Assembly (NCBI GenBank): GCA_031181325.1
Contig: JAPSKX010000008.1
Coordinates: 1 to 56,078, forward strand
Source of the DNA: Paenibacillus sp.
GTDB lineage: Bacteria; Bacillota; Bacilli; Paenibacillales; YIM-B00363
Length of the DNA stretch: 56,078 bases
Direction of reading: 5' to 3'
Of this stretch, positions 18,535 through 20,550 are shown piece by piece (position 1 is the stretch's first letter; every line of letters starts with the position of its first letter). A model generated the notes under the pieces. That model had not been told where the DNA came from. It did not search any database and saw only the letters and a program-made list of their open reading frames with translations. A program made the translations under genes and the position numbers.

Positions 18535-18927
18535 TTGATTTATACACAGCGCAACAAGTACCTGGAGACGTCCGTCCAAACCGCCACCCCTGCCCAATTG
18601 CTGATCATGCTGTGCGACGGCGCCATCCGGTTTTGCAAGCACGCCATCGAAGCGCTGAAAGCCCAGAAGTTCGAGGAAGCCAACGAATATCTCGGCCGCA
18701 CCCAAGATATCGTCAGCGAGTTCGCCATTACGCTCGATCGCAGCGCCGAGATTTCGGAATCGTTGTCGCGGCTGTACGATTATTTCAACCACCAGCTGGT
18801 CCAAGCGAACATCAAGAAGACGCCGGAGCCGGCGGAGGAAGTGCTCGGTTACCTGCTCGACCTGAAAGAGACGTGGGTCCAGGCAGCGCTTCTCGCGAAG
18901 CAGTCCGGCGCGCCGGTCGCGAAGTAA
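18535..18927 (+). CDS. fliS: Flagellar export chaperone FliS
   Basis: 130-residue flagellin chaperone; it binds the disordered flagellin C-terminus before export. Motifs: RNKYLETSVQTATPAQLLIMLCDGAIRF split by conserved positions, then EALKAQKFEEANEYLGRTQDIV and SLSRLYDYFNHQLVQAN, characteristic of the four-helix FliS bundle. The start is TTG 18535 with AGGAGG at 18521-18526. The next gene begins three bases after its stop. Confidence 0.95.
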   Translation: MIYTQRNKYLETSVQTATPAQLLIMLCDGAIRFCKHAIEALKAQKFEEANEYLGRTQDIVSEFAITLDRSAEISESLSRLYDYFNHQLVQANIKKTPEPAEEVLGYLLDLKETWVQAALLAKQSGAPVAK

Positions 18928-19283: not shown

Positions 19284-19289
19284 ATCCCA

Positions 19290-19325
19290 AGCCCCTGCTG
19301 ATATGCACAGCGGGGGCTATTTTTA
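19290..19325 (+). terminator. Terminator ending the flagellar cluster
   Basis: AGCCCCTGCT (19290-19299) pairs with AGCGGGGGCT (19309-19318; one G-U), 9-base loop, then ATTTTTAT. Ten-base-pair stem, likely strong. Confidence 0.85.
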
Positions 19326-19369
19326 TGTCGAGTTTTCCCCGAAATTGTGAGCAACCCTCATCATTGACC

Positions 19370-19399
19370 TGTGGATAATGTGCATAACTCTGTTGATAA
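19370..19399 (+). repeat. Three DnaA-box-like 9-mers in tandem
   Basis: TGTGGATAA (19370-19378) is the exact complement of the DnaA box TTATCCACA. It is followed immediately by TGTGCATAA (19379-19387) and, three bases later, by TGTTGATAA (19391-19399), each one mismatch from consensus and all in the same orientation. They lie in the AT-rich 314-base gap between the flagellar cluster and the cold-shock gene. The rest of that gap (19326-19369 and 19400-19516) holds no convincing gene. Binding by DnaA is inference. Confidence 0.6.
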
Positions 19400-19516
19400 C
19401 CAATGAAAACTTGCTTTCATCGAAGTTGATAGATTCGAATAATGTGTTTGTATTGGAATGTTCAGAAAATACCGCCAAAATTGACCGTCTGTTCATAAAA
19501 ACATCACTTGACAGAA

Positions 19517-19546
19517 TTGACTTCCTCGAGGATAGGATGGTATATT
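19517..19546 (+). promoter_or_regulatory. Promoter of the cold-shock gene
   Basis: -35 TTGACT (19517-19522), 18-base spacer, -10 TATATT (19541-19546). Another TTGACA at 19508-19513 is less well spaced. Predicted start near 19553, giving a ~45-base leader. Confidence 0.7.
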
Positions 19547-19597
19547 CAAGTTGTGGCCTAGCCGCCACGTACTTGATTATGAAGGGATTGTGTCTCA

Positions 19598-19795
19598 ATG
19601 CAAGGTAAAGTGAAATGGTTCAACGCGGAGAAGGGTTACGGCTTCATCGAGACGGAGCAGGGTGGAGACGTATTCGTTCACTTCTCGGCCATCCAAGCGG
19701 AAGGTTTCAAGACATTAGACGAAGGCCAATCCGTTGAATTCGACATCGTCGAAGGCGCGCGCGGTCCGCAAGCAGCGAACGTAGTCAAGTTGTAA
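19598..19795 (+). CDS. Cold-shock protein, CspA/CspD family
   Basis: 65-residue single-stranded nucleic-acid-binding OB-fold protein, an RNA chaperone. The RNP1-like motif KGYGFIE and RNP2-like DVFVHFSAI are intact; it begins [17 protein letters not shown] and ends [12 protein letters not shown], close to Bacillus Csp proteins. Transcribed on its own between a promoter at 19517 and a terminator at 19868. Which numbered Csp paralogue it is cannot be decided. Confidence 0.95.
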
Positions 19796-19867
19796 TTCAT
19801 TCCCATCGAGGCGGGATCGCCTTCGGATAGATGGAAGATTACAAAGAATGACGAACAGGAAACTCAC

Positions 19868-19992: not shown

Positions 19993-20550
19993 ATGAAGTT
20001 TCACATTCGTGGAAAGAACGTTGAAGTCACCGATGCCCTGAGGGAATACGCGGAGAAGAAGGTCGGCCGCCTGGAGCGTTATTTCGAGACGCCGCCAACC
20101 TCCGACGTGTACATTACGTTAAGCGTGAATAAGAATAAACATACCGTAGAGGTGACGATTCCGGTGAACGGCGTTACGCTTCGCGCCGAAGAGAAATCCG
20201 AAGACATGTACGCATCGATCGATCTCGTGATCGATAAGCTGGAACGTCAAATTCGTAAACATAAGACGCGAGTGAATCGGAAAGCCCGGCTGGAGGGCAC
20301 GCAGCGAGCGGTCTTCAAGGAAGCGTTCGAACTAGCGCCGCCGGCGCGCGCGCACGAGGACGAGGAGGACGCCTTCGAGGTGGTGCGCAAGAAGCGCTTC
20401 ACGCTGAAGCCGATGGATATGGAGGAAGCGATCCTTCAGATGAACTTGCTCGGCCATAACTTCTACGTATTCGCGAATCCGGAGACGTCTCGCGTCAATG
20501 TAGTGTACAAGCGTGAAGACGGGCGGTACGGGTTGATCGAATCGGCGTAA
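19993..20550 (+). CDS. hpf: Long-form ribosome hibernation-promoting factor
   Basis: 185-residue factor that joins 70S ribosomes into inactive 100S dimers. N-terminal S30AE domain (residues ~1-100: MKFHIRGKNVEVTDALREYA, VTIPVNGVTLRAEEKSEDMYASIDLV), a charged linker, and the C-terminal dimerisation domain (residues ~125-185: VVRKKRFTLKPMDMEEAIL, MNLLGHNFYVFANPET, VNVVYKREDGRYGLIE). ATG 19993 follows AAAGGAGG. It is the usual neighbour of secA in Firmicutes. Confidence 0.95.
   Translation: MKFHIRGKNVEVTDALREYAEKKVGRLERYFETPPTSDVYITLSVNKNKHTVEVTIPVNGVTLRAEEKSEDMYASIDLVIDKLERQIRKHKTRVNRKARLEGTQRAVFKEAFELAPPARAHEDEEDAFEVVRKKRFTLKPMDMEEAILQMNLLGHNFYVFANPETSRVNVVYKREDGRYGLIESA

Follow-up and report, generated by a model that had tools for sequence, protein, structure and literature searches.

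A predicted extra-oriC DnaA-box cluster in the csp-hpf region of Paenibacillales

Why do three DnaA boxes stand side by side between a flagellar operon and a cold-shock gene? We addressed this question in a Paenibacillus sp. contig of 56,078 nucleotides, analysed as a whole (hereafter the window) and belonging to an assembly that is 81% complete (Paenibacillales). The gene order is fliD-fliS-fliT, a terminator, an AT-rich gap, csp, hpf, secA and prfB; FliS, FliT, csp and hpf were identified by Pfam, and fliD, secA and prfB were recognised among the open reading frames. Within the gap, box 1 (TGTGGATAA, 19370–19378) and box 2 (TGTGCATAA, 19379–19387) abut and match TGTGNATAA exactly, and box 3 (TGTTGATAA, 19391–19399) carries one mismatch and follows the 3-bp spacer CTC. 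All lie on the plus strand, in the 5' to 3' order TGTGGATAA, TGTGCATAA, CTC, TGTTGATAA (19370–19399). The offsets of 0, 9 and 21 are those of the first-pass annotation of this DNA; its count of one exact and two one-mismatch boxes has to be corrected to two exact boxes and one with a single mismatch. On the other strand TGTGNATAA reads TTATNCACA, the B. subtilis DnaA-box consensus (PMC4447404). A degenerate fourth box (TTGTGAGCAA, 19345–19354) lies about 23–27 bp upstream of the triple, and this position is closer to a DnaA box in several relatives (G005, TTATCCACA; G002, TGTGAACAA). A single exact box, TGTGTATAA, is also found within the start of fliS (18540–18548, minus strand), where it forms no cluster.

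Could the boxes be accidents of base composition? The gap between fliT stop and csp start (19284–19597, 314 bp) has a GC content of 41% versus 60% in the window, in line with the AT-rich gap in a GC-rich setting described at first pass; drift in such DNA might generate DnaA-like 9-mers. In a first-order Markov model, a same-strand triple within 30 bp appeared in 2 of 20,000 simulated gaps, and a triple including two exact boxes in none of 20,000. We then aligned five congeners, picked by hpf homology to avoid selection for boxes. Mean column identity was 0.93, 0.84 and 0.80 for boxes 1, 2 and 3, 0.53 for the CTC spacer, 0.92 for a palindrome downstream of the triple (see below) and 0.42–0.59 for the flanking sequence on either side. 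In one congener, G004, the triple is degenerate, with three mismatches. Variable 9-mers in conserved surroundings, the pattern named beforehand as counting against a DnaA-box cluster, are thus the reverse of what was seen. Together with the recurrence of the same geometry at one locus across families, this conservation refutes chance or AT-rich drift, to which we assign next to no probability.

That recurrence was established with pattern searches, on which all genome-wide counts rest; families are named by their sample labels (f1–f68). With the order-level pattern TGTGNATAATGTGNATAANNNTGTKNATAA (spacing 0/9/21, at most one mismatch), the exact geometry was present in 171 of 246 Paenibacillales genomes, and a class-level pattern whose third box had G instead of K detected it in 85 of 398 Bacilli genomes. 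The reversed-pattern control gave 0 in both samples. When the listed triple matches were combined with the hpf coordinates of that order-level sample, a same-strand triple fell within 10 kb upstream of hpf in at least 81 of the 101 genomes outside family f10, and the distance was 163–823 bp in at least 79 of these 81. None of the ten f10 genomes checked had a triple closer than 20 kb to hpf, and those triples that were retrieved from f10 adjoin an ABC-F gene. As a further sample, 80 named loci were retrieved through hpf similarity. Here the triple was present in Paenibacillus alkalitolerans and Chengkuizengella axinellae, and Lihuaxuella and Marininema carried it 2.0–2.2 kb ahead of hpf; it was absent from the Cohnella loci and from most Paenibacillus loci of this sample. 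In three g27 genomes we also noted another DnaA-box cluster (G113:C1:142544-142605, G175:C1:872578-872639 and G125:C1:7497917-7497936), about 6–7 kb beyond the hpf cluster and probably past secA/prfB.

The element keeps its place relative to hpf, not relative to the origin. In the complete f6 relatives the csp-hpf boxes are about 110–160 kb from dnaA, as compared to 360–700 kb in f32 and 977 kb in G008, and a fixed oriC distance was therefore discarded as a conserved property. In f10, hpf lies 436–713 kb from dnaA; because f32 has similar distances yet keeps the cluster, distance alone fails to explain the loss in f10. An element held at one spot with exact spacing very likely has a job, as judged from sequence conservation, and this job is probably to hold DnaA.

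Several lines of evidence bear on the identity of the cluster. At least three boxes (TTATNCACA, at most one mismatch) fall within tens of base pairs, the array is evolutionarily retained, and it is intergenic (fliT-csp gap) and away from dnaA/dnaN, at 110–977 kb in complete relatives. The claim that replication genes are absent nearby held for the open reading frames listed for 15–24 kb; the genome's own dnaA is on contig C229. The csp-hpf triple is thus well supported, at the sequence level, as a DnaA-box cluster outside oriC (DBC), as had been proposed at first pass.

Where else do such clusters occur? Such box pairs were found at three places only in the genome's own assembly (csp-hpf, C43 and C68; 0 in the reversed control) and at about 3–7 loci in each complete relative. 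An ABC-F gene on C43 is followed after 37 bp by a second copy of the 18-bp TGTGGATAATGTGCATAA (L001, G000:C43:2282-2299, minus strand); an inverted box stands about 26 bp from that copy, and this cluster is likely of the gcp/ydiF type. On C68 (L007, G000:C68:8328-8413), a DnaA-box cluster directly precedes tadA, next to ychF; it may correspond to a cluster that recurs some 27–44 kb from dnaA in complete relatives. In many relatives a triple stands between tsaD (gcp) and ABC-F, some with inserted genes. Adjoining one such cluster is a 972-aa open reading frame (L164:3083-5998) with no Pfam match at 1e-5.

The tsaD/ABC-F position matters for the question of which protein reads the boxes. In B. 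subtilis the gcp/ydiF gap is one of eight regions bound by DnaA with high affinity in vitro (region 4; 10 sites, Kd 0.15 uM with ATP, 16-fold ATP preference; PMC4447404). No hpf/yvyD or secA site is named among the top 20 rows shown of the in vitro table in that source. The same triple is thus found at the orthologue of a site where DnaA binding was measured, and the genome's own dnaA-dnaN gap (C229) shares the box consensus, with TGTGCATAA and, at one mismatch each, TGTGTATAG, TGTGGATAG and TGTGGACAA. On these grounds DnaA very likely binds the csp-hpf triple. Assignment to DnaA goes by sequence and analogy, and a different protein sharing TGTGNATAA might occupy the sites instead; the same two observations argue against such a reader, which we consider very unlikely.

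Does the cluster then act on the cold-shock gene downstream? An intrinsic terminator (19290–19318, plus strand) follows the flagellar operon after fliT. The csp promoter is of sigma-A type (TTGACT-N18-TATATT with an extended -10, 19517–19546, plus strand) and is well conserved in congeners (identity 0.93 at -35 and 1.0 at -10). The gene itself (19598–19795, plus strand) encodes a 65-aa cold-shock protein (Pfam CSD, 9e-32). No family was matched in an Rfam search of the box gap, and over csp (19503–19825) a cspA thermoregulator match reached 47 bits, below the gathering score of 78. The distance from the triple to the csp start is 167–308 bp in most genomes and 491 bp in L111, that is, the boxes have no constant, overlapping or phased position at the csp promoter. 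Moreover, the cluster survives where csp is missing: in f8 and Chengkuizengella it lies 163–169 bp upstream of hpf with no csp between. Other families have it 1–8 kb away from hpf, one of them ahead of a different operon. DnaA-dependent control of csp specifically, as suggested at first pass, is therefore disfavoured and was dropped.

What accompanies the triple is more constant than the distance to csp. An imperfect palindrome, ATGAAAAC-TT-GCTTTCAT (19403–19420), starts at +33 from box 1. Most csp-bearing relatives carry it as ATGAAAACNNGCTTTCAT (31 of 49 triple-bearing loci), nearly always at exactly +33. Across 20 relatives it occurs about once per genome, mostly at the csp-hpf site, which excludes an operator serving a regulon; a cre site is likewise excluded, given that frequency and a length 2 bp greater than cre. 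The palindrome is followed by a degenerate box (TGTKAATAC) and then by the block AATTTTCNRAAWATT, present in the window as AATGTTCAGAAAATA (19457–19471, +87 from box 1, column identity 0.74). This AATTTTC block resembles a CodY box, with two mismatches to the consensus in the window. Counted from the triple, the block begins at 86–87 bp in most lineages with the palindrome, at about 76 bp in another group and at 109–112 bp where the palindrome is missing. Between groups the block shifts by about 11 or 23 bp, close to one or two turns of the helix, and such a spacing suggests that the partner proteins sit on the same side of the DNA. Neither f32 nor the lineages with the 110-bp spacing have the palindrome. 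In five loci that do not carry it (L130, L156, L158, L217 and L218), a Spo0A-box-like TGTCGAA stands about 12–15 bp after the triple.

The most serious competitor to DnaA storage concerns hpf, which encodes a ribosome hibernation-promoting factor of 185 aa (19993–20550, plus strand; Pfam Ribosomal_S30AE and S30AE_C). DnaA-ATP on the triple, together with factors on the palindrome and the CodY-like box, would control hpf directly or through the csp-hpf region, possibly csp and hpf together, and replication status would be coupled to ribosome hibernation. Linkage to hpf and orientation are conserved in most cluster-bearing lineages, the csp-free arrangement of f8 and Chengkuizengella puts the boxes just upstream of hpf, and partner motifs at fixed spacing with shifts of near-whole helical turns are typical of regulatory regions. 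DnaA is also a transcription factor at several B. subtilis clusters (PMC4447404). However, the distance to the csp promoter is unphased, a terminator closes csp and a separate promoter-like site precedes hpf. Furthermore, the cluster lies about 1.2–7.8 kb from hpf in f32, f40/f41, f28 and f17; its two neighbours are a motB-like and a glnH-like gene in the f32 genus, and in Lihuaxuella and Marininema the cluster separates a glnH-like gene from the ABC permease that belongs to it. A link between DnaA and hpf was not found in the literature, which was covered in part. We regard control of hpf as a real possibility, and as the main rival, yet would not bet on it.

The rigid arrangement also invites a comparison with the E. 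coli loci that act on the nucleotide state of DnaA. In such a reading, triple, palindrome and AATTTTC block would assemble into one nucleoprotein complex that alters this state, with the palindrome taking the role that IHF has in E. coli. An intergenic, order-wide element in which boxes and a locus-specific palindrome are rigidly spaced, about one per genome, would suit this function. Against it, B. subtilis has no known regulator that changes the nucleotide state of DnaA (PMC5295017), and the palindrome is not part of the element in f32 or in the 110-bp lineages; we judge a DARS/datA-like locus to be decidedly improbable. Only a little less doubtful is a broader proposal, namely a Paenibacillales-specific composite DnaA element in which the rigid triple, the near-unique palindrome and the helically stepped CodY-like box form one complex near hpf. 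If true, it would tie the activity of DnaA, and with it the initiation of replication, to ribosome hibernation and the nutrient state, and would represent a Gram-positive counterpart of datA/DARS.

Our best guess, held with slightly less than even confidence, is that the cluster serves as a DnaA-sequestering platform. In B. subtilis, clusters sequester DnaA, and deletion of six of them leads to early initiation (Okumura 2012, as reviewed in PMC5295017 and PMC13220808; PMC11019786); by this analogy, titration of DnaA by the csp-hpf cluster is plausible. The downstream neighbour differs by lineage (csp, hpf, a glnH-like gene or an ABC permease) while the cluster stays, and a varying neighbour and an unfixed csp distance suit an element that is not aimed at a single promoter. 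On the other hand, hpf linkage and orientation are kept at 977 kb (G008) and 360–700 kb (f32) from dnaA. A pure titration site would not need this linkage, so its persistence at distant loci counts against sequestration alone. The fixed-spaced palindrome and CodY-like block look like the architecture upstream of a promoter, and f10, the Cohnella loci and other relatives manage without the hpf copy. Sequestration and hpf control are compatible, because several B. subtilis clusters do both. For Paenibacillales, the literature yielded binding or initiation data on no member and, as far as it was covered, nothing on DnaA boxes outside oriC in Paenibacillus or Brevibacillus.

For the sequestering platform, we envisage the following mechanism. 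An extra-oriC cluster of ancient standing in Bacilli would have the csp-hpf boxes as its core. ATP-DnaA would most likely assemble cooperatively into a short oligomer on these three boxes, which run head-to-tail at 0/9/21 bp. The adjacent palindrome is probably occupied, in Paenibacillales, by a second protein, with the CodY-like site then following at a fixed distance. The main effect would probably be to keep DnaA from oriC, the role played by the six clusters of B. subtilis, where a single native cluster partly restores initiation timing in a strain without the six. Initiation of replication would probably be delayed or buffered as a result. Transcription of hpf or csp may be affected locally as well.

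Most work on extra-oriC DnaA-box clusters concerns B. subtilis and E. coli, and little is known of how these clusters evolved. In the present case, position and geometry allow a single cluster to be followed through several Bacilli families. One family, f10, had no such cluster at hpf in the genomes checked, and the contrast amounts to a natural experiment on the function of these elements. A palindrome that is nearly unique in each genome and keeps its spacing suggests a partner protein, and the position near hpf opens up a testable connection of replication control to ribosome hibernation.

How does the locus compare with known systems? It has the box consensus in common with oriC (the dnaA-dnaN region), but neither dnaA nor dnaN lies beside it, and it has no CTACTACTATGACTAC-like repeat as in the genome's own dnaA-dnaN gap. 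A second replication origin was discarded on the same grounds, with no dnaA or dnaN in the listed 15–24 kb and no origin-like repeat. As at the DnaA-regulated promoters of B. subtilis (sda, ywlC, yyzF-yydD and ywcI), the boxes stand upstream of genes; here, however, they lie about 150 bp upstream of the csp -35, unphased, and the neighbouring gene varies by lineage. E. coli datA, DARS1 and DARS2 are likewise non-coding DnaA-box loci outside oriC with sites for extra proteins, whereas the csp-hpf boxes run head-to-tail with 0- and 3-bp gaps and no IHF site is known. Like the DBCs of B. subtilis, the csp-hpf cluster packs several TTATNCACA boxes into an intergenic gap outside oriC, and the identical 0/9/21 triple recurs in these orders at tsaD(gcp)/ABC-F(ydiF). 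In contrast to the B. subtilis DBCs, the csp-hpf cluster combines a fixed triple with a palindrome and a CodY-like block; it is this locus, with its partner motifs at fixed spacing, that is new.
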